Source: Paenibacillus ihbetae (GTDB taxonomy: Bacteria; Bacillota; Bacilli; Paenibacillales; Paenibacillaceae). From it: a stretch of DNA of 64,000 nt. The notes under the pieces are model-generated. The model had not been told where the DNA came from. It worked only from the letters and a program-made list of their open reading frames with translations, and ran no database searches. The DNA lies in NCBI RefSeq assembly GCF_002741055.1, contig NZ_CP016809.1:3326501-3390500 (forward strand), written 5' to 3'. The translations under genes and the position numbers were made by a program. This document shows positions 50,680 to 64,000 of this stretch, piece after piece; within the stretch, counting starts at the first letter, position 1, and each line of letters starts with the position of its first letter.

Positions 50680-50716
50680 TTGGCCGGGAAGCCACTATTG
50701 CAGGAGGAAGAGCCTG

Positions 50717-51247
50717 ATGCTTAAAGATTTGCAAGGTGAGGCAAATATGTCCCCGATCGTTGGGATGTTATATTCTGCGGTGAAAGAGAACAGCCAGCGA
50801 CTTCAGTTGATTACGAAGGGAATGTCGCAGGAAGAAGTCGATTACAAGGGCCCCGATGGCAGCTTTAACAGCACCGCTCAATTAATGAGACATATCCTGT
50901 ATGTTGATTTGAATTGGGTGTATCGAATGAAAGGGGAGCCGCTTCCTTATTCGTTACAAGAACAATACGGCCCCATGATCGATGCGAACAACCGGCTGCC
51001 GATGATCATAGGCAAGTCGCTCAACACGCTGATATCGGAGTATGAAGAGGTGTTAAGCATCCTGAAAGACACCTGTTCCCAATTGCAGGATGCTGATTTA
51101 GATCGGGTGGTCACCTTTGGTCATGAGAATGAAAAGCAAGCAACCATCCGCTGGGGATTATGGCATATGGCTGACCATAACCGTTATCATCAGGCACATA
51201 TTAATCTGCTAAGAAAATGGTATGCAGAGCATTCGCTTTCAAAATAA
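50717..51247 (+). CDS. DinB-family protein
   Basis: This 176-residue four-helix-bundle protein has the three metal-binding histidine positions of the DinB/YfiT family: His in LMRHILYVD, and His residues in WHMADHNRYHQAHI near the end. Members are metal-dependent thiol transferases or damage-inducible proteins of unclear function. GGAGGAAGAG lies before ATG at 50717. A second good start exists at codon 11 (MSPIVG). It lies 38 bp behind the VanZ-like gene and may share its transcript. Confidence 0.8.
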   Translation: MLKDLQGEANMSPIVGMLYSAVKENSQRLQLITKGMSQEEVDYKGPDGSFNSTAQLMRHILYVDLNWVYRMKGEPLPYSLQEQYGPMIDANNRLPMIIGKSLNTLISEYEEVLSILKDTCSQLQDADLDRVVTFGHENEKQATIRWGLWHMADHNRYHQAHINLLRKWYAEHSLSK

Positions 51248-51321
51248 AGGGATATCACGTAAAGATTCGGCACCTGCGGATGTATTCTATTTGTAAGAAA
51301 GATTTGACGTTGGTTTGACTT

Positions 51322-51347
51322 AAGCCATCCTGTGCGGGATGGCTTTT
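51322..51347 (+). terminator. Rho-independent terminator after the DinB-like gene
   Basis: AAGCCATCC pairs with GGATGGCTT across a short loop and ends in TTTT. An 84-codon frame that begins within the stem is not a gene. Confidence 0.75.
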
Positions 51348-51571
51348 AAGTGCTTCCTTTCGCATTTCAAAAGTGAGGGAGATCGCCCATTTGCATGGCT
51401 TGTCGTCCGAGCGTCGCTGATCATCGTGCAGCAGTCATCATTACACCGCGCGCTGGGAGAGGCACGCGGTAATTGTACTCCTCCGCTGTGCAGAAATTCT
51501 CATTGCATCGAGGCTTCTTCGGAGCTTAATAATAAGCAGTCATGTATAGATTTTAGTGCCAAAAGTCGCGA
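51348..51571. other. Intergenic stretch without recognised gene
   Basis: No coding frame with a ribosome binding site is seen. The stretch lies between the DinB terminator and the promoter region of the first c-di-GMP riboswitch. Composition falls from G/C-rich to A/T-rich along it. Confidence 0.4.
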
Positions 51572-51600
51572 TTTACCAAAATACGACAAATAGTGATAAT
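51572..51600 (+). promoter_or_regulatory. Possible promoter of the first riboswitch transcript
   Basis: TTTACC (51572-51577) and GATAAT (51595-51600) are 17 bp apart. A second TATAAT at 51660-51665 lacks a good -35 box. If the first is used, the leader starts about 85 bp before the aptamer. Confidence 0.35.
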
Positions 51601-51692
51601 ATACTACAAAAATAAGGCCGTAGAACCTAATTTAATCCGCTGTAATAATATACCTTTAGTATAATAGTTAATGTTTCTCAATTACATACAAG
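51576..51692 (+). repeat. 117-bp upstream leader segment, copy A of a duplication
   Basis: This segment and the one at 56260-56376 have the same length and share blocks such as CGACAAATAG, AAAATAAG, AGAACCTAA, ATAATATAC and TTTCTCA.TTACATA in the same order, immediately upstream of riboswitches 1 and 2. The duplication therefore covers promoter, leader and aptamer. Confidence 0.7.
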
Positions 51693-51801
51693 GTCGTACG
51701 ATCATGGCAAACCCATTGAAAAGTGGGGACGCAAAGCTATAGGGGCTAACGGATTTGCTGCAATACGCAAATTCTACTGCCAGCCAGCTACCGAATACGG
51801 C
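51693..51801 (+). promoter_or_regulatory. Cyclic di-GMP class I (GEMM-I) riboswitch aptamer 1
   Basis: The RNA contains the class I core in order: GGCAAACC, a GAAA tetraloop hairpin, GGGACGCAAAGC, GGGGCTAA, a second hairpin (GGATTTG/CAAATTC) and CAGCCAGCTACCGA. The closing stem P1 is GTCGTA (51693-51698) with TACGGC (51796-51801). These are the hallmarks of the GEMM-I fold that binds c-di-GMP. It lies 190 bp before an SLH-anchored surface protein gene on the same strand. Confidence 0.93.
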
Positions 51802-51848
51802 GGAGGCCTCCGTCCAGCGTTTGACCGCTTTGACGGAGGTTTTTTTTT
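51799..51848 (+). terminator. Expression platform of riboswitch 1 (antiterminator and terminator)
   Basis: A terminator stem CCTCCGTC (51807-51814) / GACGGAGG (51832-51839) with inner AGCG/CGCT is followed by nine T residues. A competing hairpin GGCGGA (51799-51804) / TCCGTC (51809-51814) shares its right arm with the terminator and its left arm with the 3' strand of P1. Ligand-stabilised P1 would weaken that hairpin and favour the terminator. Confidence 0.75.
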
Positions 51849-51990
51849 GCAACGGGGGTGGTGCTTATCGATGGTATATATGTTTAGTTCTTTATACATT
51901 GCCGGGTTTACCCACCTGTTAGTCACTCTAACGGGTGAATCTTGATGAATGCTGCATGACATTTAATGAATGTAAATAGGAGGTAGAGAG

Positions 51991-54900
51991 ATGTTTGCCA
52001 AAGGCAGTAAGTACTACTGGAAAAGGCAGTTAGCCATTTTGCTTTCAATCGTGGTCGTAGCTGGCGGCTTTCCACTTGCGTTGGCTCCTCAGACAGCAAA
52101 TGCTGCTGCGAACGGTCCGGGCGGGGTTAGCCAGGATTTGGTCTCCTGGTTCGAGTTAACGAAAGGGATGGACAGCGGGTTTGAAGATAACGGAACCTAT
52201 ATCACCAAATTGCAGGATTTAGCCGATCCCAACAGGGTATGGGTCCCTTATCACACGGACAGGGTTCTAAAACTTGAGGATATCGGCAAGGCGATGATCA
52301 ACTATCACCCGGTAACCGTATCTTTTACAGCAACTAAGAAAATGCAATTTAAAACAAACTCTGAATTAGCTATTCCCGCCACTGGTGCAAGAGAAGTATT
52401 CTCTGTACAAATCAATGGTACGACCGGCTTCCCGTGGGAATTTGGGGGGAACGAAACCAGCTCGTCGGCTTATCAACAAAATAATATTTCGACGCATTTT
52501 GGAACGTCCGCATTGAAGAGCTTTACACCTGCAGAGACGATTACCGTCCCTCACATTCTTAACGCCAGGGCGGGGAATGACTGGGCTCTTTCCATTAATG
52601 GTTATCTGGAAAAGGCGGAACCAACGAATAGCGTGGACTGGACAAGAAATATGGGTGGAACAGCCGGTTATCATTATATTGGCGCAGCCCACAATAGAAC
52701 TTTTGATGGCGGACAAATTGCAGAAGTGCTTGTGTTTAACCGCAAATTGAATGAGGAAGAGCGGGAAAAGGTAAACAGTTATCTCGCGCTGAAATATGGC
52801 ATTACATTGAAAACCGAAGCAGGTGATCCTGCCGACTATGTTGCAAGTAACGGCACATTAATGTGGGCAGCAGCTGACAACAGCGGTTTTGGGCATAGGA
52901 TCACAGGGATCGGAAAAGATGTTGCCGGAGGGCTTGAGCAGACCCAATCCAAGTCCCAGGTTGAGGGAGCGAACGTCGCCATAGCTCTTGGTGATTTTGA
53001 AGCTTCCAACAAGGAAAATGCGCAGAAGAATCCGATCGCTACGGATACGACTTTTCTAACATTTAGTGACAATGGTAATCCAGCTGATTACGTGAATGTA
53101 ATTGACGATACGGATTTGCCTCAAGCATTAAAGCATGCGAATGACACGACACAATCTCCGGCAACTATGATGTCGCGAGTGTATAAAGTCGAGAAAAGCG
53201 CCGATTGGACCGATGCGCCGATTACTTTGCAAGTCGACGGCGCAGATCAAGAGAAGTATCGAATCTACCTGTTAACGAGCAATAGTCCGACGTTTGAGCA
53301 GGCAGCAGTAACCGTGGTCCCAGCGGACAAAGTGACCGGCAAGGCAACTTTGAACAGCAGCCAGCTTGCTGACGGAAGCTACTTTACTTTTGTCACTCAG
53401 GTGGATAAAAGGGATCTGGAACAACGCGCGAATGAAATCCAAGCCGAAAACTTGCAAGAGGAAAACTACTCGGCAGCAAGCTGGGCAGCTTTCGATCAAG
53501 CTCTGAAAGAAGCTGAAGCCGCATTGCAAAATCCGGCTGCTACCCAGAAGGAAGTCGATGATGCGCTGAAAGCGCTCGATGATGCGCGTAATGGATTGAC
53601 TGCAGATAAATCGGCATTGCAGAACAGAGTGGACGAGCTGGAGGCCGAAAATCTTGCTGAGGAGAACTACTCCAAGGACTCCTGGGATGCCTTTCAAGCT
53701 GCGTTGACGCACGCAGAGGAAGTTCTGCAAAATCCGGCTGCTACCCAAAAAGAAGTCGATGAGGCTCTGCAAGCTTTGAATGAGGCGCGCGATGGACTGC
53801 GGGCCGATAAAACCGAGCTTGAAGCGACGGTCAATGAAATTGATAATTTCATGACGAGTGGCGGCTATGATGAAAATAACTATACTTCGGAGAGTCTGAC
53901 ACCGTTTAAGGATGCTCTGCAGAATGCTCAAGATGTATTGAGCAAACCGGACGCTACGCAGCAGGAAATTGATGAAGCAAATCAAGCCTTAAGAGAAGCG
54001 TATGAAAATCTGGTTACGAAGGACGCGATTCTTGAGAAGCTGGAATTGAAGGTATTTGATGCACAGGGCGGAGCAGAAATTCAGTTAGAGCCTCCGTTCG
54101 ATGGCCATCAATATCTGAATTATCAAGCCGCTGTAACGGAGAGCGTCTATAGCGCTAAGCTTGCATTTGAGGAATTGCACCCGGACAGCGAGGTTGAGGT
54201 TACATTCCACGGTCAAAAGGTTGACCAATGGGACGACCTGCAGCTTCAGCCGGGCCCGAATGAGATTGCCGTAACCGTAGACTATCAGGGCAAGAAAAAC
54301 ACCTACACCGTTATCATTTATAAGACGGATAAGACCGAGCTTCGAGAGCTGGTTAATCAAGTTGATGGTGATATCAACACGGGTACATTGAAAGAGGAAG
54401 ATTACACACCAGAAAGCTGGGCACAATTCCAGCAAGCTTTGCAGGCAGCCAAAGACGTGCTGGAAAACAAGAACGCAACCCAGCAGGAGGTCGACGCTGC
54501 ACAGCAAGCGTTGCAAGAAGCACAGGATCGCTTGGTTAAAAAGCCGGCCGTGGTGGACAAGTCCGAGCTTCAGCAGAAAGTAGACGAAATCCAAGGCAAG
54601 AAGAACGATGGCAGCTTAAAGGAGTCTAACTACACGCCAGACAGCTGGAGAAACCTTGAAGAGGCATTGAAAAAGGCCGAAGATGTATTGAAGAAGCCGG
54701 ACGCGACGCAGCAAGAAATAAATGATGCGAAAAAAGCATTGGAAGAGGCATTTAATTTATTAAAACCGGCCACTTCCGGCGGAGGTAATAACGGCGGGGA
54801 AACGCCAGTGACCAATCCGGAACCGTCCAAGCCTTCCGATGTTCCAGGACCGTCCAAGTCTACCGATATTAAAACCACGGTAAACGGCGAAAATGGCTCT

Positions 54901-56121
54901 TTTGCTACCGGAAGCACCAAGAAAGACGGGGACCACGAAATCATCGTGGTGGAGGTCGACAAAGGAAAGTTGTCCGACATCTTGTCCAAGGGTAATGGTC
55001 AGAAGCTGGAGATTCAGGTCCCTGGCGGCAAGGACGTAGAGGTGAAAGGTCTGACCGCTGCCGATGTGAAGAAGCTGGCTGATACGGGCTCGACGCTGAC
55101 GATTGAGGACGAGCTGCTGGCTATTTATCCGGTTCCTAGCAAACAGCTGGATTTAGGTGAGATAGCGAAGCAATGGAATGGCGCTGAGTTGCAAGATATT
55201 GCTCTGAACATCACGATCAAACGCACTTCGCAAGAGCTGGCAGACAGCGCTCGCAAACAGGCTGAAGCCAAAGGCTATGAGCATCTCCTTCATCCGGTCG
55301 ATCTTGACATGACCTTCACGCATGACGGCAAGACAGTAAGATCCGAACAGCTGAACGGCTATGCGCCGAAATACATCGCGCTTCCGGAAGGCATTGACCC
55401 GAACCGAATCACGACAGGCGTTATTGTGAATCCGGACGGCAGCGTGTACCATGTACCGACGGTCGTAACAAAGGTCAATAACCGGTACTTCGCACTCATC
55501 AATGACCTGCGCAGCAGTGGTACTTATTCAGTGATCTGGAATCCGCAGGATTTCGAGGATGTGCAGTATCACTGGGGCAGAGCAGACGTGAACAATATTG
55601 CCGCAAGACTCGATCTGAAAGGCAATGGCGACAACACGTTCTCGCCGAACCGGCATGTGACACGCTCCGAATTTGCTGAAATTGTCGTGTTGGGCCTGGG
55701 CTTAATGCGTCAAGACGCACCGCAAAACATCTACCCAGACGTACCGACTACGGCATGGTATCGGAATGCCGTTGCGCTCGCGGACGAATTTGATATCGTT
55801 CGGGGTTATACGGACGGCAATTTCAAGGGTAGTCAGCAAATTACAAGAGAGCAAGGATTTGCGATGATTGCCCGTGCGTACCGCTTGATTCAATCCGAAA
55901 ACGTGCCGAGTCAGGAGGAAATCGCTTCCACGCTGGCCCGATATGCGGATGGAGATAAAGTCGCTTCATGGGCTAAAGGAGATGTCGCCCAGCTGATCGC
56001 AGCGGGAATTATCCAAGGCAACGGACCTGATCATCTGAGTCCAAAAGCGCAAATGACACGCGCGGAAGTAACCGCATTGATCGCAAGAATGCTGAAAGTG
56101 ACGAACCTAATCGATAAGTAA
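51991..56121 (+). CDS. SLH-anchored multidomain surface protein (adhesin-like) under riboswitch 1
   Basis: This 1,376-residue surface protein has a signal peptide (about 1-38), an N-terminal LamG/DUF8202-like sandwich (about 45-270, ending in GGQIAEVLVFNRKLNEEE) and an associated beta region (280-465). Three FIVAR-type helical repeats (about 471-680), a cadherin-like sandwich (681-785), two more FIVAR repeats (786-930), a Pro/Ser linker and a region of unknown fold (960-1180) follow. Three S-layer homology domains (about 1188-1376, FSPNRHVTRSEFAEIV, ITREQGFAMIARA, MTRAEVTALIARML) bind pyruvylated wall polysaccharide. ATG at 51991 follows AGGAGG. Expression should depend on the upstream c-di-GMP riboswitch. 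The N-terminal part is paralogous to the gene at 61156. Adhesion is inferred from architecture. Confidence 0.92.
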   Translation: MFAKGSKYYWKRQLAILLSIVVVAGGFPLALAPQTANAAANGPGGVSQDLVSWFELTKGMDSGFEDNGTYITKLQDLADPNRVWVPYHTDRVLKLEDIGKAMINYHPVTVSFTATKKMQFKTNSELAIPATGAREVFSVQINGTTGFPWEFGGNETSSSAYQQNNISTHFGTSALKSFTPAETITVPHILNARAGNDWALSINGYLEKAEPTNSVDWTRNMGGTAGYHYIGAAHNRTFDGGQIAEVLVFNRKLNEEEREKVNSYLALKYGITLKTEAGDPADYVASNGTLMWAAADNSGFGHRITGIGKDVAGGLEQTQSKSQVEGANVAIALGDFEASNKENAQKNPIATDTTFLTFSDNGNPADYVNVIDDTDLPQALKHANDTTQSPATMMSRVYKVEKSADWTDAPITLQVDGADQEKYRIYLLTSNSPTFEQAAVTVVPADKVTGKATLNSSQLADGSYFTFVTQVDKRDLEQRANEIQAENLQEENYSAASWAAFDQALKEAEAALQNPAATQKEVDDALKALDDARNGLTADKSALQNRVDELEAENLAEENYSKDSWDAFQAALTHAEEVLQNPAATQKEVDEALQALNEARDGLRADKTELEATVNEIDNFMTSGGYDENNYTSESLTPFKDALQNAQDVLSKPDATQQEIDEANQALREAYENLVTKDAILEKLELKVFDAQGGAEIQLEPPFDGHQYLNYQAAVTESVYSAKLAFEELHPDSEVEVTFHGQKVDQWDDLQLQPGPNEIAVTVDYQGKKNTYTVIIYKTDKTELRELVNQVDGDINTGTLKEEDYTPESWAQFQQALQAAKDVLENKNATQQEVDAAQQALQEAQDRLVKKPAVVDKSELQQKVDEIQGKKNDGSLKESNYTPDSWRNLEEALKKAEDVLKKPDATQQEINDAKKALEEAFNLLKPATSGGGNNGGETPVTNPEPSKPSDVPGPSKSTDIKTTVNGENGSFATGSTKKDGDHEIIVVEVDKGKLSDILSKGNGQKLEIQVPGGKDVEVKGLTAADVKKLADTGSTLTIEDELLAIYPVPSKQLDLGEIAKQWNGAELQDIALNITIKRTSQELADSARKQAEAKGYEHLLHPVDLDMTFTHDGKTVRSEQLNGYAPKYIALPEGIDPNRITTGVIVNPDGSVYHVPTVVTKVNNRYFALINDLRSSGTYSVIWNPQDFEDVQYHWGRADVNNIAARLDLKGNGDNTFSPNRHVTRSEFAEIVVLGLGLMRQDAPQNIYPDVPTTAWYRNAVALADEFDIVRGYTDGNFKGSQQITREQGFAMIARAYRLIQSENVPSQEEIASTLARYADGDKVASWAKGDVAQLIAAGIIQGNGPDHLSPKAQMTRAEVTALIARMLKVTNLIDK

Positions 56122-56132
56122 TAAAGCACCGC

Positions 56133-56175
56133 AATCAACCATTGATGACTTTGATGTCATCAATGGTTGATTTTT
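56133..56175 (+). terminator. Rho-independent terminator after the SLH gene
   Basis: A 17-bp near-perfect stem, AATCAACCATTGATGAC with GTCATCAATGGTTGATT, is followed by TTTTT. It ends the first surface-protein transcript before the next promoter. Confidence 0.9.
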
Positions 56176-56259
56176 CATATTTTTGCTCCCGTGGCGCTTT
56201 CGACGGGATCGGCAGCATTTTGTTTACAAGTGTAGAGGAAGGTAGGGAGTTGTATCTTC

Positions 56260-56376
56260 CCAAAAATCGACAAATAGAGAGAAATAACTACGAAAATAAG
56301 ACCAAAGAACCTAACTTATCATACCTTTATAATATACTTTTAAATCAATGGTTAAATTTCTCAGTTACATATAAGC
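56260..56376 (+). repeat. 117-bp upstream leader segment, copy B of a duplication
   Basis: Equal in length to copy A (51576-51692), with shared blocks as listed there. It lies directly before riboswitch 2. An 86-codon frame across it has no ribosome binding site and is not called. Confidence 0.7.
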
Positions 56377-56486
56377 TCGTACGAACATGGCAAACCCATT
56401 GAAAAATGGGGACGCAAAGCTAAAGGGGCTAACGGATTTGCATCAGAACGATGCAAATGCTACTGCCAGCCAGCTGCCGAATACGA
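56377..56486 (+). promoter_or_regulatory. Cyclic di-GMP class I (GEMM-I) riboswitch aptamer 2
   Basis: It has the same core as aptamer 1: GGCAAACC, GAAA loop, GGGACGCAAAGC, GGGGCTAA, a hairpin GGATTTGCATC/GATGCAAATGC and CAGCCAGCTGCCGA. P1 is TCGTA (56377-56381) with TACGA (56482-56486). Compensating changes in the stems relative to copy 1 support an RNA structure under selection. Confidence 0.93.
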
Positions 56487-56527
56487 CGGACAACTCCGTC
56501 TATTTTGGATGGGGTTTTTTATTTTTT
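56485..56527 (+). terminator. Expression platform of riboswitch 2
   Basis: A hairpin GACGGA (56485-56490) / TCCGTC (56495-56500) overlaps the 3' strand of P1. It competes with a terminator stem CTCCGTC (56494-56500) / GATGGGG (56508-56514), followed by TTTTTTATTTTTT. The layout is the same as in copy 1, although the sequences differ. Confidence 0.72.
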
Positions 56528-56770
56528 AAGATATTAAAATTTTAGCTATTGTTAGTCGAGGGATTAAACCTTGTCTATAGATGAGATGACTCGGGTCCGG
56601 CGATGATTGATTGATTACCCGAACTAGGCTGGTTCCCGATGGGAAGTAGGAAACACCATCTTAGAGTGGGAGGTGAATACTCGATCTGGGGGAAACCCGT
56701 GAATTAAAAACTGTTCAAGAATTGACCCAAAAACTTCCCAGAATACCATATCAAAAAGAGGTGACAAAAC
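56528..56770 (+). other. 243-bp leader with several short hairpins before the second surface-protein gene
   Basis: Between riboswitch 2 and the start codon lie TCGGGT/ACCCGA (56591-56596 with 56617-56622), TTCCC/GGGAA (about 56633-56645), GAGT/ACTC (56664-56682) and GGG-GGAAA-CCC (about 56688-56698). The packed G/C-rich pairings in an otherwise A/T-rich area suggest an additional folded RNA. No known riboswitch class is matched with confidence. Confidence 0.4.
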
Positions 56771-59700
56771 TTGAAGCTGAAATCAAAAGTAAAAAAGAGT
56801 TTACATAACAGTCTAATATGCTTAATGGCAATGCTCATTGTATTTAGCGGAATCTCACCAGTACAAGCTGCAACCCTGCCAAGTACGCCCATTGATCAGC
56901 ATCCAAAGGCAACCATGTTAGGGGGTGTAGGTGAAGGAAAATATATTGATGCGGACTATTCGTTTACACCAAGGCTTACAGACGAAACGGAAGTGTCTGT
57001 TACACCAGGACCGAATACTAGATTAATAACGGTAGAAGAAATGTGCAGTAAAGTTCCTCAATCTACGTGTGATAGTTGGAAAACGCAAAGTTCAGCTAAT
57101 TTTTTTGAAGATACATCTGGGGGACGTTCACCATCAGCAACCCTCAGTTTTACGAATGTCGGAATTTACAACAATCAGAAAATAGACATGGTGGTTGAAA
57201 CTACGTCCGAGAGTACAGATGTGCTTAACAGTGCTTTTGATGTGTCTGGTGCATCCAGAAATTCATCAGCGTCGTCGCAAACTGCTTTTACACGTAAGGC
57301 GACTTTTATATCTCATGAAACTGGGCAACCAGTTGAGGTAAAAGGATATATCTCTTTTAGTGCCATAAACGCAGCAAAAACAATGTTGTTTGATTTACCG
57401 ATAAAGGACATATTTGCTATTAGTGGATCAACGATCCTTTATGATAATGGGATTACTAATGGAGAGCCTTTGTTCGTGAAGGGTACAGCTCCAGGAGGAA
57501 CTGGCACACCAGATACCATGATGACTCTTGTCTTTGAGGAAACATCTACCATCACCTTTACGGAGACTTATGCTGGTGCATCAAATGTCCGACAAACTCA
57601 TGGGACTAGAATTGATCAATTCAGCTTAACTGGAATTGAGCCTCCTGCACCTGTAAAGTTCGGGTATTCAGTAGCAGATAAAAAGATAGGTCAAAACGAG
57701 TACCCGGATTCTCGGGAGCCTATTTACCAAATCGTCCAGTCCGTTCCTTATGCAGATCCAATCAATTACTACAAGTCATTTGAGATCACGGATGCTTTGA
57801 ATGAGGTACTAATCGTCGAAGAGAAAGACATTGAAATCAAAAATACCATCGGGGTTGATGTATCCAGTCTATTTGACGTATCCGTTATCGATCATCAACT
57901 ATCGATCAAAGCAAAAGATGCTGCGCTTTCCAACGCCAATTTTTATAATCAACAATATACGATTACAATTAAGGGCGCATTGGATTTAACAAGTGATTAT
58001 GACAAATATATGGATCAAGATGGCAATATTTTAGTTTCCAATAAAGCGATAACGACGATTGATAATGTACCAAAAAGCAGCAATGAAGCTAATGCGAAGT
58101 TTAAGTTTAAAACGCCTGTGCTTGAGTCTCAAAAGACTGCTTCTATCGAGCAAAAGGCAACTGGTAACACGGATCTGAATCATCCGGAAGTGGGAGATAT
58201 CCTCACGTATACGATTCAGACTCGAAACACCGTGGACAACAGCCAAATTAAAAACCTAACGATCAGTGACACCATTCCGCAAGGAATCGAATATGTGTCG
58301 GGTACACTAATTGTAGATGGACAGTCGGTAACGGATGCTGAAGGGGACGACAGCGGCCATTATGCATCCGGTCAGGTTGTCGGCGAAATTGGCACCGTCT
58401 CCGACATGAATCAGCATACGCTTCAATTCAAAGCGGTCGTACAGCCTGGACAAGCCGGGAAGGATATTATCAATATCGCCACGGTGGGAGGCGACAATAT
58501 CATTACGCCGGACAGACCGCGAGCAGAAGTGGAAGTCTACCCTAGAAATCCGCAGATTGAATCCGAGAAGTTTGCCGTGAACAATGTAAGCAAGGCGACG
58601 TATGAAGTCGGAGACACCCTCACCTACACAATTCGTGTAAGAGGTGTGGTCAACGATACGTATCTGGAGAATTTGACGATTACGGATACGTTGCCGGCAG
58701 GCTTGAAATACGTGCCGAACAGCTTAAAGGTGGACGGTGTATCCGTCACCGATGAGAACGATAACGATGCCGGTTATTCTGTAACGGGCGAAGTATACGG
58801 CTCATTTGGCAATGTTAAGGGAACGGATTGGCATACGCTGCAGTTCCAGGCCGTTATTGAATCGGGACAAGGCGGTCAGACGATCCAAAACACGGCTCTA
58901 GTGGAAGGTGACAATATTGATCAACCGGGCACACCAACAGAGAAAATTGTTGTTGAACCAGAACCGCCAATCGATCCTGATCCAGTAGATCCAACGGATC
59001 CGGTAGATCCAACGGACCCGGTAGATCCAACAGATCCAACAGATCCGGCGGATCCAACTGACCCAACAGATCCGACGGACCCAACTGATCCTCCAGTAGA
59101 TCCGGTAGATCCGCCAGTTCCCCCGCCAGTCGATCCGGGTAACGGCGGTGGAGGCGGTTCAGGTGATGTAACGCCGCGCTCTCCGGTCGTTGAATCTGAA
59201 AAGGCTGCAAAGGACCTGAATGGTGGGAGCATCGAGGTCGGGGATACGATCGAGTATACGATCCGTGCCCGCAACACGGTTTCCGGCAGCCAGGTAACCA
59301 GCATGGTGATTTCGGACAAACTGCCTGCAGAACTGGAGTATGTAGCAGGTACATTGAAAGTAAACGGTGTCTCGGTAACGGATAGCGCCGACGGCGACCG
59401 AGGCGAATATACAAACGGTACGGTTAAAGGAAGCTTCGGAACCGTAACGGATACGGCTTGGTATACGCTGGTGTTCCAAGCGAAGATTATCAAGGGCCAA
59501 CATGGGGACGTCATCAAGAATGTGGGTGAAGTGAGTGGAGGTAACCTGAATGTTCCGAGCCGCCCAAGCGAGGAGATCACGATTAACGATCCGACTTCGG
59601 TCGATCCGGCACCTGTCATGGAATCCGGAAAAGAAGTGAAGGATCTGAACGGCGGTACGATTCAAGTTGGGGACGTAATCGAGTATACGATCCGTACGCG

Positions 59701-60364
59701 CAACACCACCCCGAATGCTGTGAAGAATCTTGAGGTCTCGGATGAGCTGCCGAGTGAACTGAAGTACGTAACAGGCAGCTTGAAGGTGGACGGCCAATCG
59801 GTAACGGATGCGCAGGATACCGATCAGGGCTCGTACGTGGATGGCATTGTCAGCGGACAGTTCGGCAACATTACGGATACGGCATGGCATACGATCGTGT
59901 TCCGTGCCGAAGTGGCAGCAGGGCAAGCCGGCCAGACGATCCGCAACGTAGGTGAAGTAACCGGGGATAACCTGGTGATACCGGATCATCCGTACGAAGA
60001 CATCATCATTGGTGGCGGAAGCGGAAGTAATCCGGGGATCCCGGGGGATCCGAATGATGGATCCTCTACCGATCATCCGAACAATCCGGGCGGAGGAGAT
60101 TCGGATTCCACATCTCCAGACTCCAGCCATTCCGGAGGATCCAATGGCACCGGTAGTTCGGATGACACAGTCACAGCTGGTGAATCGGATGGAACTGGAC
60201 AATCCAGTCAATCTGCTTCTTCGAAGGACTCCTGGAACGCAGAGTCCGGAGACCGTAATGGCAACAAGCTGCCAAATACGGCTACCAATATGTACAGCTA
60301 TATGTTGGCTGGATTCATCCTTCTGTTGGCAGGCCTGTTCCTGGTCAGAAGAAGAAAGGCATAA
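56771..60364 (+). CDS. LPNTA sortase-anchored repeat surface protein under riboswitch 2
   Basis: This 1,197-residue wall protein has a signal peptide (about 1-34, VQA), an N-terminal region of unknown fold (35-295), an isopeptide-type fimbrial domain (about 300-450), and two DUF11-like sandwich repeats (453-592, 595-727). A proline-aspartate linker (about 730-790), two more DUF11-like repeats (802-940, 944-1080) and a Ser/Gly stalk follow. The sorting signal is LPNTA (1167-1171), hydrophobic helix and RRRKA. LPNTA rather than LPXTG is known as a class D sortase signal (Bacillus anthracis SrtC). The start is TTG at 56771, eight bases after AGAGGTG. No sortase gene is in the window. It is expected to follow c-di-GMP through the upstream riboswitch. 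Confidence 0.9.
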   Translation: MKLKSKVKKSLHNSLICLMAMLIVFSGISPVQAATLPSTPIDQHPKATMLGGVGEGKYIDADYSFTPRLTDETEVSVTPGPNTRLITVEEMCSKVPQSTCDSWKTQSSANFFEDTSGGRSPSATLSFTNVGIYNNQKIDMVVETTSESTDVLNSAFDVSGASRNSSASSQTAFTRKATFISHETGQPVEVKGYISFSAINAAKTMLFDLPIKDIFAISGSTILYDNGITNGEPLFVKGTAPGGTGTPDTMMTLVFEETSTITFTETYAGASNVRQTHGTRIDQFSLTGIEPPAPVKFGYSVADKKIGQNEYPDSREPIYQIVQSVPYADPINYYKSFEITDALNEVLIVEEKDIEIKNTIGVDVSSLFDVSVIDHQLSIKAKDAALSNANFYNQQYTITIKGALDLTSDYDKYMDQDGNILVSNKAITTIDNVPKSSNEANAKFKFKTPVLESQKTASIEQKATGNTDLNHPEVGDILTYTIQTRNTVDNSQIKNLTISDTIPQGIEYVSGTLIVDGQSVTDAEGDDSGHYASGQVVGEIGTVSDMNQHTLQFKAVVQPGQAGKDIINIATVGGDNIITPDRPRAEVEVYPRNPQIESEKFAVNNVSKATYEVGDTLTYTIRVRGVVNDTYLENLTITDTLPAGLKYVPNSLKVDGVSVTDENDNDAGYSVTGEVYGSFGNVKGTDWHTLQFQAVIESGQGGQTIQNTALVEGDNIDQPGTPTEKIVVEPEPPIDPDPVDPTDPVDPTDPVDPTDPTDPADPTDPTDPTDPTDPPVDPVDPPVPPPVDPGNGGGGGSGDVTPRSPVVESEKAAKDLNGGSIEVGDTIEYTIRARNTVSGSQVTSMVISDKLPAELEYVAGTLKVNGVSVTDSADGDRGEYTNGTVKGSFGTVTDTAWYTLVFQAKIIKGQHGDVIKNVGEVSGGNLNVPSRPSEEITINDPTSVDPAPVMESGKEVKDLNGGTIQVGDVIEYTIRTRNTTPNAVKNLEVSDELPSELKYVTGSLKVDGQSVTDAQDTDQGSYVDGIVSGQFGNITDTAWHTIVFRAEVAAGQAGQTIRNVGEVTGDNLVIPDHPYEDIIIGGGSGSNPGIPGDPNDGSSTDHPNNPGGGDSDSTSPDSSHSGGSNGTGSSDDTVTAGESDGTGQSSQSASSKDSWNAESGDRNGNKLPNTATNMYSYMLAGFILLLAGLFLVRRRKA
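58970..59110 (+). repeat. Tandem 9-base repeats encoding a DPT/DPV linker
   Basis: Units such as GATCCAACG and GATCCGGTA, in 9- and 18-base periods, encode alternating DPT, DPV and DPP triplets. They connect two pairs of DUF11-like domains. Such repeats are prone to slip and may vary in number between strains. Confidence 0.85.
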
Positions 60365-60421
60365 CTTTGCAAGGAAGCAGCATTAAAAAATGGACAAAGC
60401 GGTTGCTGCTTTCTAGGTACA

Positions 60422-60454
60422 CGAAAGGGACCGGAGTGATTCGGTCCCTTTTCA
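60422..60454 (+). terminator. Rho-independent terminator after the LPNTA gene
   Basis: GAAAGGGACCG pairs with CGGTCCCTTTTC around an 8-base loop and is followed by TTTTC, about 60 bp after the stop. Confidence 0.85.
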
Positions 60455-60774
60455 TTAATATATTTGGAGTATTGGCGACTTATACAGCTAATAGAACCCA
60501 AATCATAATACCTATAGGTACAAAGCTTTAAGGGTTTGATGAGTTTTCTAGAGATTCCAAATTAGAGGCATTTCTTTCAGAAGGCTCTATCTATAATCGT
60601 TTTATTCAGAATATATTCAGAAATGTCAAATATAATGTCAAAAGAAACTACCAAAGCACTAAATTAGACATAATCTGATAAAATTCAACAAACTTAAGAC
60701 TTGAGCACCTTGTGCTTTTATGAAATAAGACTCAAAATTTAAGTAGTTTTGTTACCAAGTTTTACATATAGAGC
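60455..60774. other. A/T-rich intergenic stretch before riboswitch 3
   Basis: These 320 bases carry no coding frame with a ribosome binding site and are clearly richer in A/T than the flanking genes. The promoter of the third surface-protein gene must lie here but no good sigma-A pair was found. It does not clearly resemble the duplicated leaders of copies 1 and 2. Confidence 0.4.
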
Positions 60775-60869
60775 TCGTACGATAAGAGCAAACCTGTTGA
60801 AAAGCGGGGACGCAAAGCTAAAGGGGCTAAAGGTTCTATTGACCTATGCCAGCCAGCTGCCGAATACGA
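60775..60869 (+). promoter_or_regulatory. Cyclic di-GMP class I (GEMM-I) riboswitch aptamer 3
   Basis: The core is complete: GAGCAAACC, GAAA loop, GGGGACGCAAAGC, GGGGCTAAAGG, a hairpin closed by AGGTT/GACCT and CAGCCAGCTGCCGA. P1 is TCGTA (60775-60779) with TACGA (60865-60869). It is 14-15 bases shorter than copies 1 and 2 because the second hairpin is smaller. It lies upstream of the third surface-protein gene. Confidence 0.92.
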
Positions 60870-60922
60870 TGGAAACCTCCGTCTATTGGCGTTCTGTTCG
60901 CTATTAGACAGAGGTTTTTTCG
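60868..60922 (+). terminator. Expression platform of riboswitch 3
   Basis: GATGGA (60868-60873) / TCCGTC (60878-60883) overlaps P1. It competes with a terminator stem CCTCCGTCTA (60876-60885) / TAGACAGAGG (60905-60914, one mismatch), followed by six T residues. It is the third case of the same switching layout. Confidence 0.75.
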
Positions 60923-61155
60923 TTTTACCTGAAAGATTCGGTGTTGGTAGGCTTTTATAAAAAGGGTCTGCAGCATTGAAAGGGGTTGATGCTTTTTTGA
61001 AATGCCGTCGGTTGGGTGTGACTTTAAATGGGACTAGACTCTAACTTTGAGGTTAAGAGTAGTGAAAAGTTAAGCAAAGTCCCGAGTAAACTTTAGAATT
61101 TTCGAAGCTTCCTGCAATTGCTGGGAGATACGAAAGAACAGGAGGATGAGAGAGC

Positions 61156-64000
61156 TTGTTTTCAAAAAGCAGTAAATTATTCTGGAAGAGGCAGCTTAAG
61201 GTTTTGCTTGCGTTCGTTGTCGTGGCAAGCAGTTTTCCCGCTGTGTTCGCACCGCAGCCTGTGAGTGCAGCAGGAGTAGTACCTGCCCCCGGTGGAGTGG
61301 ATACTGGGTTGATTTCATGGATTGACGCGGAAAAAAGTATAGATGAAGCGGGACAAGCTGCAGGTAAATCCGATAAATTGATTGACCAGCGTGGGAACAG
61401 AACGTGGACTGGAACTGGTCAGTATTTGACCAGTGCATTTAATTTTAATGGTGGAATTGAATTTCCAGGTTCGGGTCTGTATCAAATCGGGCAATTTAAC
61501 CAGGACGATAATATGCGAGAAATATTTTCAGTTCAAGCAAGCAACGGAGTGAAGAAAACAGCAAGTTTTCCATGGGAGTTTGGTGCAGGGATAACTGAGA
61601 ACAATACTATCTACTGGCCTACAATTCGGACGGCTTTCGGCAGAGAATCCACTCTGGACATTAGTGTGGACGAGGATTTGTTGAAAAATGCCGCGATCAT
61701 GAATATCTGGAGTGCACCAGATGATTGGAGTCTTTCACTTAATGGTGCAGAGAAACGACATGAACCTACCAACACACCTAATTTCTTCTCTCGTACTACC
61801 GGTCAATCGAGATACTATATTGGCGCAGGACATAACAGTATATTTAATGGAAGAATTTCCGAAGTCATTCTCTATAACAGGAAACTTGAAGACTATGAAC
61901 GTCAAAAAGTAAACAGCTACCTAGCGTTGAAGTATGGCTTGACGTTGAAAAATGAAAATGGTCAGCCGATGGATTATATTGCAAGCGACAGCACTAACGG
62001 TACTGATGGGACAAAGATGTGGACAGCGACCAAGAACGTTGGGTACGGCAACCGTATTACAGGGATTGGACTCGACGAAACTGGCAATTTGAATCAAAAG
62101 CAGTCAAAGTCTCAGGAAACGGGAGCAATCGTAACGATTGCATTAGGTAATGAGATTACTACGGCTAATAAAGATGTTCAATCTGAAATTGTAAATGATC
62201 GCTCATTCTTTGTATTCAGCGATGATAATGGAAGCGCAGAGTATAACCAAGCAGTTTCCACAACGGACGTTCCTGGTGATTTACAACGCATGCAACGTAA
62301 TTTTAAGGTGGAAAAAACAAATTGGGCTGATGCCGAAATTACACTGCAAATACCCGATGTAGATGAAGATTATTGTTATTACTTGCTCATTAATGAGACC
62401 ACAGCTAAAGCGTTGGATGTATCCGGTCAAGTAACATTGAGTACCGGTGAGCTTGCAGACGGTGCAACCTTTACATTTGCCAGAGCACTAAAGATTCCTT
62501 TGGCTGCGCCGAATGTTAAATTGGATGTTCATGAGCTAACATGGGAGCCGGTGGAGCATGCTGATAAGTATGAAGTGACGATCACGTTAAACGATAACAC
62601 GGTAAAAATAGTGGAAGTACTTGATGGTAAGACGACGCTTGACTTGACGACTCTGGGATTAGCCCCGGACACCTATAAATTGACGGTTATCGCGAAGTCA
62701 AGCGATCTGGCGTATTCGGAATCCGAAGTGTCAAATGAGGTGGATTACAAAGCCGTCCCAAAGTTGGAGAGACCAGACAACGTTACAGTGAACGGGGACC
62801 AGCTGACATGGGATGCGGTTACAGATGCTGACGGTTACGAAGTAACCATCAAGCATAGTGATGGAACGATCAGCAAAGTTCCGGTACCAAATGGAACAGA
62901 ACTCGACTTATCGAAGATAGAACCTGCCTTGGTTCCAGGGACTTATTCAGTGACTGTAACGGCGAAGTCGGATAATCCAGCAGAATATACGGATTCGGAA
63001 GCATCGGATGCTGTGGAGTATACGGTTGATCAGATGCAGTTAAAGAAACCAACTGCGCAGTTGCAGGACAATAAGCTGATCTGGGAAGCTGTAAACTATG
63101 CAGACAAGTATGAAGTAACCGTTAAGTCAAAAGACGGTGTGGTTATAACTACAGAAACGGTAGAGGGAACAGAATTCGACTTGTTGACGTTGGGATTAGC
63201 ACCAGGAACCTATGAAGTGACTTTAACGGCGAAGTCGAATACTCCGGATGTATATACGGATTCAGAAGCATCGGATGTCGTAGAGTTTACGGCACCGGAA
63301 GGTGTAGATAAAACAGCGTTGAGGAACAAAATCAATGAGGCGAAAAGCCTGACACCTTCCGACTATACGCAAGCAAGCTGGACTAATCAGGAGCGTGTGC
63401 TTGAGGAAGCGAATCGTGTGCTGAAAGATCCAAATGCAACACAAGCCGATGTGGATCAAGCGCTGGACAAGCTGCAAAAAGCGTTGGATAATCTCGTTGT
63501 ATTGAACGGAGAACTAGAGGAGTTGAATCTCGCAGGTTTGAATAACGATGGGAACCAAGCCATTACACTTAACCCAGCGTTCGATCCGAACCAATACAAA
63601 ACCTATCAAGGAACCGTAGCGAACGACGTATACGGCATCAGCTTGAATCCGAAGGCGAAATATCCAGATGATAATCAGGTCAAAGTCTTCGTGAACGGTA
63701 AAGAGTATCCTGTTGACCAGTGGGACAACCTTCCGTTAGAGGAGGGCGTGGATAATGTTGTAAAAGTCGGCGTCTATAGTAAAACCGGTCAGCTGATCAA
63801 CGAGTATACCTATACAATTTTCCGTGAAAGTGCTGTACCAGCCGACAACAAGTTGGAATCGTTAGTTCCTTCTGTAGGAAGCTTGTCTCCGGCATTTGAT
63901 CCGAATCAGGATACCTACACGATGAACGTAAGTAACAGTGTGTACCAGATTCAATTGACGCCGACGGCAGTGGATCCAAACGCGACGATTCAAATACGCG
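61156..64000 (+). CDS. Third riboswitch-controlled surface protein (incomplete, runs off the window)
   Basis: The frame starts at TTG 61156, ten bases after GGAGG, and stays open to the end: 948 codons are visible. A signal peptide (SKLFWKRQLKVLLAFVVV start, cut near VSAAG) is followed by a LamG/DUF8202-like domain (about 35-275). This domain is clearly paralogous to the one in the SLH gene, with GRISEVILYNRKLEDYERQ against GQIAEVLVFNRKLNEEERE. A beta region, three fibronectin-III-like repeats of about 85 residues (about 450-715), one FIVAR repeat (about 717-780) and at least two cadherin-like sandwiches (785-, 895-) follow. A wall anchor, probably SLH, is expected past the edge. Control by riboswitch 3 is inferred from its position 235 bp upstream. 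Confidence 0.9.
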   Translation, partial: MFSKSSKLFWKRQLKVLLAFVVVASSFPAVFAPQPVSAAGVVPAPGGVDTGLISWIDAEKSIDEAGQAAGKSDKLIDQRGNRTWTGTGQYLTSAFNFNGGIEFPGSGLYQIGQFNQDDNMREIFSVQASNGVKKTASFPWEFGAGITENNTIYWPTIRTAFGRESTLDISVDEDLLKNAAIMNIWSAPDDWSLSLNGAEKRHEPTNTPNFFSRTTGQSRYYIGAGHNSIFNGRISEVILYNRKLEDYERQKVNSYLALKYGLTLKNENGQPMDYIASDSTNGTDGTKMWTATKNVGYGNRITGIGLDETGNLNQKQSKSQETGAIVTIALGNEITTANKDVQSEIVNDRSFFVFSDDNGSAEYNQAVSTTDVPGDLQRMQRNFKVEKTNWADAEITLQIPDVDEDYCYYLLINETTAKALDVSGQVTLSTGELADGATFTFARALKIPLAAPNVKLDVHELTWEPVEHADKYEVTITLNDNTVKIVEVLDGKTTLDLTTLGLAPDTYKLTVIAKSSDLAYSESEVSNEVDYKAVPKLERPDNVTVNGDQLTWDAVTDADGYEVTIKHSDGTISKVPVPNGTELDLSKIEPALVPGTYSVTVTAKSDNPAEYTDSEASDAVEYTVDQMQLKKPTAQLQDNKLIWEAVNYADKYEVTVKSKDGVVITTETVEGTEFDLLTLGLAPGTYEVTLTAKSNTPDVYTDSEASDVVEFTAPEGVDKTALRNKINEAKSLTPSDYTQASWTNQERVLEEANRVLKDPNATQADVDQALDKLQKALDNLVVLNGELEELNLAGLNNDGNQAITLNPAFDPNQYKTYQGTVANDVYGISLNPKAKYPDDNQVKVFVNGKEYPVDQWDNLPLEEGVDNVVKVGVYSKTGQLINEYTYTIFRESAVPADNKLESLVPSVGSLSPAFDPNQDTYTMNVSNSVYQIQLTPTAVDPNATIQIR

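Follow-up and report, generated by a model that had tools for sequence, protein, structure and literature searches.

The question raised by this locus is whether three neighbouring genes for large surface proteins are each controlled by a c-di-GMP-I riboswitch of their own and, if so, what the second messenger would do to them. The initial annotation had placed three GEMM-I aptamers here, each ahead of one large exported protein. When the window (the whole 64 kb stretch of DNA analysed) was searched at Rfam gathering thresholds, we obtained three matches, all of the c-di-GMP-I type, and one large open reading frame lies 3' of each (Table 1). Aptamers 1 and 3 matched RF01051 (51696-51795 and 60777-60864) and aptamer 2 matched RF03167, c-di-GMP-I-GGC (56380-56482, 61.9 bits, cut-off 59 bits). 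The RF01051 covariance-model check suggested in the annotation also came out in its favour, with 69.0, 69.0 and 81.0 bits for aptamers 1, 2 and 3 at a cut-off of 35 bits. All three retain the conserved core and are followed by a full expression platform. The GGC variant is defined by a G replacing the A after GACGC (consensus GACGCGAAG), and we take "GGC" in the family name to mean positions 20/47/92. Aptamer 2 reads GACGCAAAGC, and because the diagnostic G is absent the variant label was rejected, despite RF03167 winning the clan competition. In the region 50700-61300 no known RNA family other than c-di-GMP-I members was detected (Rfam E<=1), and ten other leader loci (E<=0.5) likewise gave c-di-GMP-I family members only.

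Table 1. Positions of leader elements, genes and terminators along the row (window coordinates)
Feature	Position	Strand	Basis or remark
Upstream block of leader 1, CGACAAATAG...	51584..51633	+	40/50 vs leader 2 block
c-di-GMP-I aptamer 1 incl. P1	51694..51800	+	RF01051 69.0 bits, alignment; G20
Aptamer 1 P1 strands, UCGUA / UACGG	51694-51698 / 51796-51800	+	
Antiterminator hairpin 1, GGCGGA/UCCGUC	51799..51814	+	two-base overlap with P1 3' strand
Intrinsic terminator 1 + T tract	51803..51848	+	-23.0 kcal/mol
Surface protein 1, 1376 aa	51991..56121	+	DUF8202, FIVAR x5, cadherin-like, SLH x3
Terminator after gene 1	56133..56172	+	17-pair hairpin + T run (terminator scan)
Upstream block of leader 2 (reference copy)	56268..56317	+	ungapped scoring
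c-di-GMP-I aptamer 2 incl. P1	56377..56486	+	RF03167 61.9, RF01051 69.0 bits; G20
Aptamer 2 P1 strands, UCGUA / UACGA	56377-56381 / 56482-56486	+	
Antiterminator 2, AAUA+GACGGA / UCCGUC+UAUU	56480..56504	+	folding energies
Intrinsic terminator 2 + T tract	56492..56526	+	folding + terminator scan
UTR element CTTGTCTATAGATGA of leader 2	56570..56584	+	15 nt, 3' of small hairpin
Surface protein 2, 1197 aa	56771..60364	+	DUF11/isopeptide repeats, LPNTATN sorting signal
Terminator after gene 2	60427..60448	+	GGGACCG/CGGTCCC then T run; by inspection only
Upstream block of leader 3 (diverged, weak)	60666..60715	+	27/50 at exactly -111
c-di-GMP-I aptamer 3 incl. P1	60775..60869	+	RF01051 81.0 bits; A20
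Aptamer 3 P1 strands, UCGUA / UACGA	60775-60779 / 60865-60869	+	
Antiterminator 3, AAUA+GAUGGA / UCCGUC+UAUU	60863..60887	+	folding energies
Intrinsic terminator 3	60872..60920	+	-23.4 kcal/mol
Surface protein 3, first 948 codons	61156..64000	+	gene runs past window end

Along the row the anchors follow the order SLH, LPNTATN, SLH. Proteins 1 and 3 belong to the SLH-anchored class, with three SLH domains (99 bits in protein 1) and a signal peptide judged by eye, as were the signal-peptide-like N-termini of proteins 1 and 2. The DUF8202 domain of protein 1 is PF26628, its name being taken from the title of one match. Protein 2 has the features of a substrate of the LPxTATN-specific class D sortase, since its sorting signal (NF058670, 43.5 bits, cut-off 32) combines LPNTATN, a hydrophobic stretch and a basic tail, and such a sortase is encoded about 5 kb beyond gene 3 (NF058671, 221.6 bits, cut-off 140). 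Gene 3 had been described as truncated, but this only reflects the window edge, since the flanking genome holds the complete gene (L016:1156-5472, 1438 aa; Cadherin-like, FIVAR, SLH x3). Thus, the SLH and LPNTA anchors stand as annotated, and the "different anchoring modes" come down to two, gene 3 being SLH-anchored again. As annotated, each gene has its own leader, and we found a terminator hairpin in all three; because every leader has its own terminator, three separate transcription units are a fair reading of the sequence. The terminator scan that listed the hairpin after gene 1 did not list the one after gene 2.

The initial annotation was silent on polarity, and the leader anatomy predicts OFF. 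In Cd1 of Clostridioides difficile the ligand-bound state is the OFF state (PMC9262584), and the class I switches of this organism are OFF switches, including that of a calcium-binding adhesion protein (PMC11477304). Here, the antiterminator takes up the P1 3' strand together with the 5' arm of the terminator, as in a Cd1-type OFF switch, weakly so in leader 1; it is the antiterminator, and not the 5' arm of the terminator, that overlaps P1. Since this order of P1, antiterminator and terminator is that of the Cd1 OFF switch, c-di-GMP is predicted to silence the row, a prediction that is weakest for leader 1. The energies of antiterminators 1, 2 and 3 were -8.1, -9.8 and -8.1 kcal/mol and fell to -4.1, -3.8 and -4.1 when the P1 strand was blocked; 81, 0 and 21 of 200 shuffles were as stable, the first hairpin being the weakest of the three. 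Across the genome, 12 of 13 leaders carry a terminator hairpin (the tandem pair at 194 kb left out), including the c2a and ATPg leaders with their poor T tracts. Blocking the P1 3' strand weakened the antiterminator in all 12 (from -8.1..-13.3 to -2.6..-5.3 kcal/mol), and at the T tract or ahead of it, forcing P1 increased terminator pairing in 11 of them, the gain being only slight in leader 1 and absent in c2a. In the longest transcripts of 10 of the 12 leaders, over half of the pairing went to the terminator even with no ligand present (0.8 or more in nine), and therefore switching would need to occur kinetically. The GACGGA/UCCGUC hairpin was found again in leaders of other species. A scripted platform test of 33 leaders, which applied a stricter T-tract rule than the 13-leader analysis, failed at the anchor or terminator step for 12, and these were counted neither for nor against.

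The leaders also share sequence outside the switch. A 50-nt upstream block is common to six surface-gene leaders and weak in leader 3. In leader 1 it matches the leader 2 block without gaps at -112, and only 2 of 390032 background positions match as well, this background including the window leaders themselves. The c2a leader reaches the same score as leader 3 (27/50), but at another place, whereas the leader 3 ortholog of the related species G087 and a P. tyrfis leader both score 31/50, the latter 63 nt nearer the aptamer. Ungapped scoring was used because gapped pairwise identity of the upstream regions was uninformative (shuffled background 72%), and a MAFFT alignment of six leaders was poor and left out of the counts. 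The block might serve as promoter or operator; a sigma-70 scan gave 15 sites where 13.7 would be expected by chance, and CGACAAAT may resemble a Spo0A box, a reading that was considered. The pattern CYTGTCTATAGATRA, to which the UTR element of leader 2 corresponds, matches the genome exactly at four places, each of which lies in a c-di-GMP-I leader and precedes an LPNT[AS]TN gene; one mismatch adds one further site elsewhere, and a reversed control pattern gave one site at <=1 mismatch.

Three surface targets are confirmed, but the row that was proposed to set the composition of the whole cell surface is only part of the picture. The genome carries at least 15 c-di-GMP-I aptamers, five of which form a second row about 54 kb further on, and non-adhesin targets also occur among them (GTP cyclohydrolase II, a LuxR-type regulator and a Spo0E-like gene). 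A tandem pair (194068/194219) lies ahead of a transglutaminase gene. When the 15 aptamers, reduced to 13 units by merging two close pairs, were placed at random, 75 of 20000 simulations produced three units on one strand with no more than 20 kb between neighbours; because of duplication, random placement is a weak null. The RF01051 and array scan covered 50 genomes, 10 of them chosen non-randomly.

Probably, the row represents three adjacent, apparently separately transcribed surface genes, each with a transcriptional, Cd1-like OFF c-di-GMP-I riboswitch. Without ligand, the P1 3' strand would pair downstream as antiterminator and RNA polymerase would read through; bound c-di-GMP would hold P1 closed, weaken the antiterminator and let the terminator form, turning the gene off. 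SLH- and sortase-anchored proteins would thus be withheld at high and displayed at low c-di-GMP. The row may have its origin in a leader (upstream block, aptamer and platform) that spread to partly unrelated genes, together with duplication of the SLH gene.

c-di-GMP usually promotes adhesion, and a row of ON switches, in which the messenger raises read-through and surface display, would fit this logic. Such polarity is published for Bc2/cap and the class II adhesin riboswitches of C. difficile (PMC11477304, PMC4933901, PMC6366702), but here P1 is overlapped by the antiterminator and not by the terminator 5' arm, and forced P1 drives terminator pairing up rather than down in those 11 of 12 leaders, so that we regard this reading as quite improbable. 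No better are the prospects of another reading, in which the row is simply what gene duplication and a spreading leader left behind, some of its switches having decayed and their coordinated function being slight. It would account for the 81% identity of the SLH ends of proteins 1 and 3 (over 421 aa), for the c-di-GMP-I aptamer being present in the fetched flank of only 4 of 59 named gene-1-relative loci, for the lowest-scoring genome aptamer (44.5 bits, before the Spo0E-like gene and lacking a terminator) and for two large protein 2 relatives in G087 (~4.20 and ~4.65 Mb) with none of the 10 aptamers listed for G087. Against it stand the conserved cores and full platforms of all three window aptamers and the leader 3 ortholog in G087, which keeps aptamer, upstream block and A20.

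The proposal that one second messenger acts on the row stands as far as three c-di-GMP-I leaders go, but a single ligand is not assured because aptamer 3 carries A in place of the consensus G at RF01051 model column 11, which we take to be the ligand-contact position 20. Aptamers 1 and 2 have G there, so that of the three only aptamer 3 shows the A20 typical of GEMM-Ib (cGAMP) members. Aptamers 1 and 2 might accordingly sense c-di-GMP and aptamer 3 3',3'-cGAMP, or both ligands with a shifted threshold, which we judge unlikely. The A recurs in the G087 ortholog, but in the alignment two more leaders of the genome also carry A20 and two C20. All seven strong GGDEF domains have Asp and none Ser at the residue scored, presumably the Hypr position (two weak domains were left unclassed), and the genome search revealed no SMODS synthase; within these two families, no cGAMP synthase was found. 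Cd1 G11 is equivalent to Vc2 G20, and the base at position 20 is described as a selectivity factor and not a hard filter (PMC9262584), whereas in Gmet_0970 A20G turns cGAMP into c-di-GMP selectivity (PMC6456294), and in a serial array of Desulfobacca acetoxidans one aptamer is of the A type and shows improved binding of cGAMP (PMC9481103).

For three separately transcribed OFF switches we counted the shared upstream block, the nearby class D sortase and the recurring GACGGA/UCCGUC hairpin. Against them stand the shuffle matches of antiterminators 1 and 3, the 12 failures in the scripted test, terminator dominance without ligand, the ON polarity of the closest Bacillota adhesin precedent, Bc2/cap (PMC4933901), the report that Bc1 binds c-di-GMP without regulating its genes in response (PMC11218506) and the warning that polarity cannot be extrapolated (PMC6366702).

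Compared with known systems, the row is real and known in kind; every ingredient has published precedent, and the arrangement is unusual. It shares with Cd1 of C. difficile flgB (PMC9262584, PMC11477304) the aptamer class, the strand order and the predicted OFF polarity, but Cd1 controls flagellar genes in one operon, whereas the present row serves three surface proteins. A c-di-GMP-I leader on one cell-wall-anchored adhesin is also known in Bacillota from Bacillus thuringiensis (Bc2/cap, PMC4933901), but it is single and ON. Several surface adhesins are also under c-di-GMP riboswitches in C. difficile (CD2831/CD3246 with PPEP-1), but there the adhesin switches are class II and ON, and class I acts on the releasing protease (PMC11477304). 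The initial annotation called a serial array with different anchoring modes less usual. This holds for the arrangement, but a serial c-di-GMP-I array as such has a precedent in D. acetoxidans, where several switches are spread over separate genes in a stretch of 7 kb and the final cluster has an A-type ligand base like aptamer 3; those switches are paired with AdoCbl switches and predicted ON, and the section describing the array has no surface-anchor theme (PMC9481103). The tandem c-di-GMP-I switches before transglutaminase yebA in Bacillota (PMC12452182) match the pair at 194068/194219, but act on one unit instead of serially over genes. In literature titles and abstract openings, a scope with subscription papers mostly outside, we found no c-di-GMP-I surface array from Paenibacillus.

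A further-reaching but doubtful reading is that a portable leader was copied onto unrelated surface genes, that rising c-di-GMP silences the coat and that A20 retunes switch 3, so that the coat would change stepwise. Such a leader would comprise the upstream block and the OFF switch, plus in four cases the UTR element marking sortase D substrates, and retuning could be toward another cyclic dinucleotide or toward another threshold. If the OFF reading is true, c-di-GMP would silence rather than promote large surface-anchored proteins in this bacterium, contrary to what is usual for adhesion. Similar platforms and a single changed ligand base make the row a natural test set for single-nucleotide control of ligand choice or threshold, and the shared leader may help to trace the spread of RNA switches to further genes.

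When the window was searched with the Rfam models at gathering thresholds, we found three c-di-GMP-I-type aptamers and no other RNA family; the initial annotation, which had placed a GEMM-I aptamer ahead of each of three large exported proteins, was thus confirmed for all three. The aptamers are separated from these genes by 196, 289 and 292 nt (leaders 1, 2 and 3), and an intrinsic terminator lies 3' of each of them. Protein 1 carries DUF8202, FIVAR, cadherin-like and three SLH domains, and protein 2 carries DUF11/isopeptide repeats and ends with LPNTATN, a hydrophobic stretch and a basic tail. The anchoring modes proposed for these two proteins (SLH, LPNTA) were upheld, but the third protein, which had been described as truncated, is whole in the flanking genome and again carries SLH domains. 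Proteins 1 and 3 are paralogous: they are 39% identical over 495 columns at the N-terminus, and at the SLH end the identity is 81% (421 columns). For protein 2, no relation to protein 1 was detected (best E 0.25).

Among the named relatives of protein 1, those with the best scores belong to Paenibacillus. At four of the 59 named loci with such relatives, the fetched flank contained a c-di-GMP-I aptamer (E<=0.01), and four further weak matches reached E-values of up to 5; five loci lacked upstream sequence (start <500 bases from the match). The two strong sortase genes found in the genome start about 5.3 and 9.6 kb beyond the end of gene 3, and a third, weaker match (39.5 bits) lies outside the window, about 1.4 kb to its left. 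The predicted specificity of the nearer enzyme fits the LPNTATN signal of protein 2.

Features and their locations (window, 64-kb stretch; L016, L019, L021 and L023, stretches of the same genome outside the window; L103, stretch of the related genome G087)
Feature	Location	Remarks
Upstream block, leader 1	window:51584-51633	copies mostly begin CGACAAAT
Upstream block, leader 2	window:56268-56317	
Upstream block, leader 3	window:60666-60715	weak
Motif CYTGTCTATAGATRA	window:56570-56584	3' of small hairpin; also in three other leaders
Membrane protein	window:18197-19078	degenerate GGDEF-like domain (43.2 bits), translation without GGDEF motif
Nearer sortase	L016:10750-11409	class D, LPxTATN-specific; 221.6 bits, cut-off 140
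Second sortase	L016:15056-15691	flanked by genes for response regulator and large collagen-binding/SpaA protein
Second row, five aptamers	L019:2949-12325 (genome 3440949-3450325)	LuxR-type regulator, 247-aa protein, 1819-aa DUF11 protein, Spo0E-like gene
Single aptamer	L021:3831-6093	ahead of 279-aa protein, then ATP-grasp protein
Single aptamer	L023:2900-5103	ahead of GTP cyclohydrolase II plus RibD
Aptamer of G087	L103:13342-17633	ahead of ketosynthase-/reductase-like gene run (by eye); 247-aa gene there in P. ihbetae

The switches of the window are probably OFF switches, in which the ligand silences the gene; this prediction, which we make with moderate confidence, is based on strand layout and P1 forcing, and the shuffle controls lowered our confidence in it slightly. 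We analyzed 13 leaders, i.e. all but the 194-kb tandem pair, and found a terminator hairpin downstream in 12 of them, with poor T tracts in c2a and ATPg (two leaders outside the array). A second hairpin (antiterminator), typically GACGGA/UCCGUC, links the 3' strand of the aptamer closing stem P1 with the terminator's 5' arm. This antiterminator became weaker in 12/12 leaders when the P1 strand was blocked, least so in g1176 (from -9.5 to -5.3 kcal/mol). When P1 was forced, partition functions of growing transcripts indicated earlier terminator pairing in 11 of 12 leaders. The shift was clear for leaders 2 (0.76 vs. 0.01) and 3 (0.51 vs. 0.00) and slight for leader 1 (0.16 vs. 0.00, at one length); c2a did not shift at the lengths tested. 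In the longest transcripts, most pairing resided in the terminator even without ligand (10/12 leaders) and therefore, the decision would have to fall during transcription, as likewise modelled for Cd1 (PMC9262584, excerpt). Of the 21 leaders scored, 13 (leader 2 among them) had an antiterminator whose stability was matched by at most 10 of 200 shuffles. Leaders 1 and 3 were outside this group (81/200 and 21/200).

At model column 11, which from the alignment and the usual numbering we take to be position 20 of Vc2, aptamers 1 and 2 carry a G and aptamer 3 an A. Among the 15 listed aptamers of the genome this selectivity base is G in ten, A in three and C in two, and a scan of 100 genomes of the genus (this one included) yielded the fixed-length A pattern in 13 genomes, against 76 with the G pattern. 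The Cd1 equivalent is G11, and according to excerpts of the literature an A at the selectivity position can favour cGAMP (PMC6456294) and the position is no hard filter (PMC9262584). Neither a Hypr-type GGDEF among the seven strong GGDEF domains nor a SMODS synthase was found in the genome. Aptamer 3 is more simply explained by a shifted threshold for a single ligand.

The genome was scanned as a single contig of 6.59 Mb and contains at least 15 RF01051 matches, all above cut-off; this number is a lower bound because scoring was limited to 150 of the 445 first-look candidates, and a similar limit applies to the aptamer counts of the other genomes. Single aptamers precede a 2072-aa lectin/DUF11 protein, a 1176-aa Big_9 protein and a 769-aa SLH protein, and a tandem pair precedes a transglutaminase and a collagen-binding protein with an LPKTG end. 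With the aptamers before the GTP cyclohydrolase II/RibD and 279-aa/ATP-grasp genes, small-molecule biosynthesis is apparently controlled. In the second row, the LuxR-type regulator has two aptamers (361 nt apart), the 247-aa protein gave no Pfam match and the aptamer of the Spo0E-like gene is the weakest listed (44.5 bits) and lacks a terminator.

We defined a row as a series of at least three units on one strand in which neighbours are no more than 20 kb apart, merged aptamers <500 nt apart and judged the rows by eye. Among 50 genomes (40 including this one, plus 10 chosen mostly for carrying A-type aptamers), many of them drafts in which rows may be hidden, rows were found in two: P. ihbetae (two rows) and G087, the genome of a related species (one row of four units). 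The G087 row matches the second row of P. ihbetae in part (1820-aa protein 97% identical, LuxR-type protein 83%); its fourth unit, a tandem pair ahead of a transglutaminase, is located elsewhere in P. ihbetae. G087 has an ortholog of gene 3 (60% identity, 781 columns) behind an aptamer with an identical 32-nt core, including A20, and none of its 10 listed aptamers is a second one near this gene. In the six loci of G087 that were read, the best match was never an ortholog of gene 1 or 2. Near 4.20 and 4.65 Mb, G087 encodes two more large proteins related to protein 2, with no aptamer among these 10, and thus such proteins are not always switched.

Six of the surface-gene leaders have in common a 50-nt block about 111 nt 5' of the aptamer. 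Scored against leader 2, the block reached 40/50 in leader 1, 39 in c2d, 37 in g2072 and 33 in g1176 (leaders elsewhere in the genome); the match of leader 3 was weak (27/50, at exactly -111). The remaining eight leaders tested scored 19-27, and the 27 of c2a came from a different position. Exact copies of the motif CYTGTCTATAGATRA occur at four places in the genome, in every case within a c-di-GMP-I leader (leader 2, c2d, g2072, g1176), and one additional site with a mismatch lies elsewhere. Among the translated aptamer-controlled genes, exactly these four encode LPNTATN/LPNTSTN ends. A fifth LPNTATN protein adjoins the array on the minus strand; neither a listed aptamer of the same strand nor an exact CYTGTCTATAGATRA site is near it. 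Unrelated proteins (1, 2) thus have similar leaders, and paralogs (1, 3) have diverged ones.

As far as excerpts of the sources go, a single c-di-GMP-I adhesin leader (PMC4933901), OFF class I platforms (PMC9262584, PMC11477304) and tandem class I aptamers (PMC12452182) are in print, as is a serial array in which one aptamer is of the A type (PMC9481103). Our literature search, with subscription papers mostly outside, retrieved neither a comparable Paenibacillus row that covers surface-anchored proteins nor a prior report of the shared leader. The ingredients are published; the row over surface-anchored Paenibacillus proteins and the shared leader are unusual.
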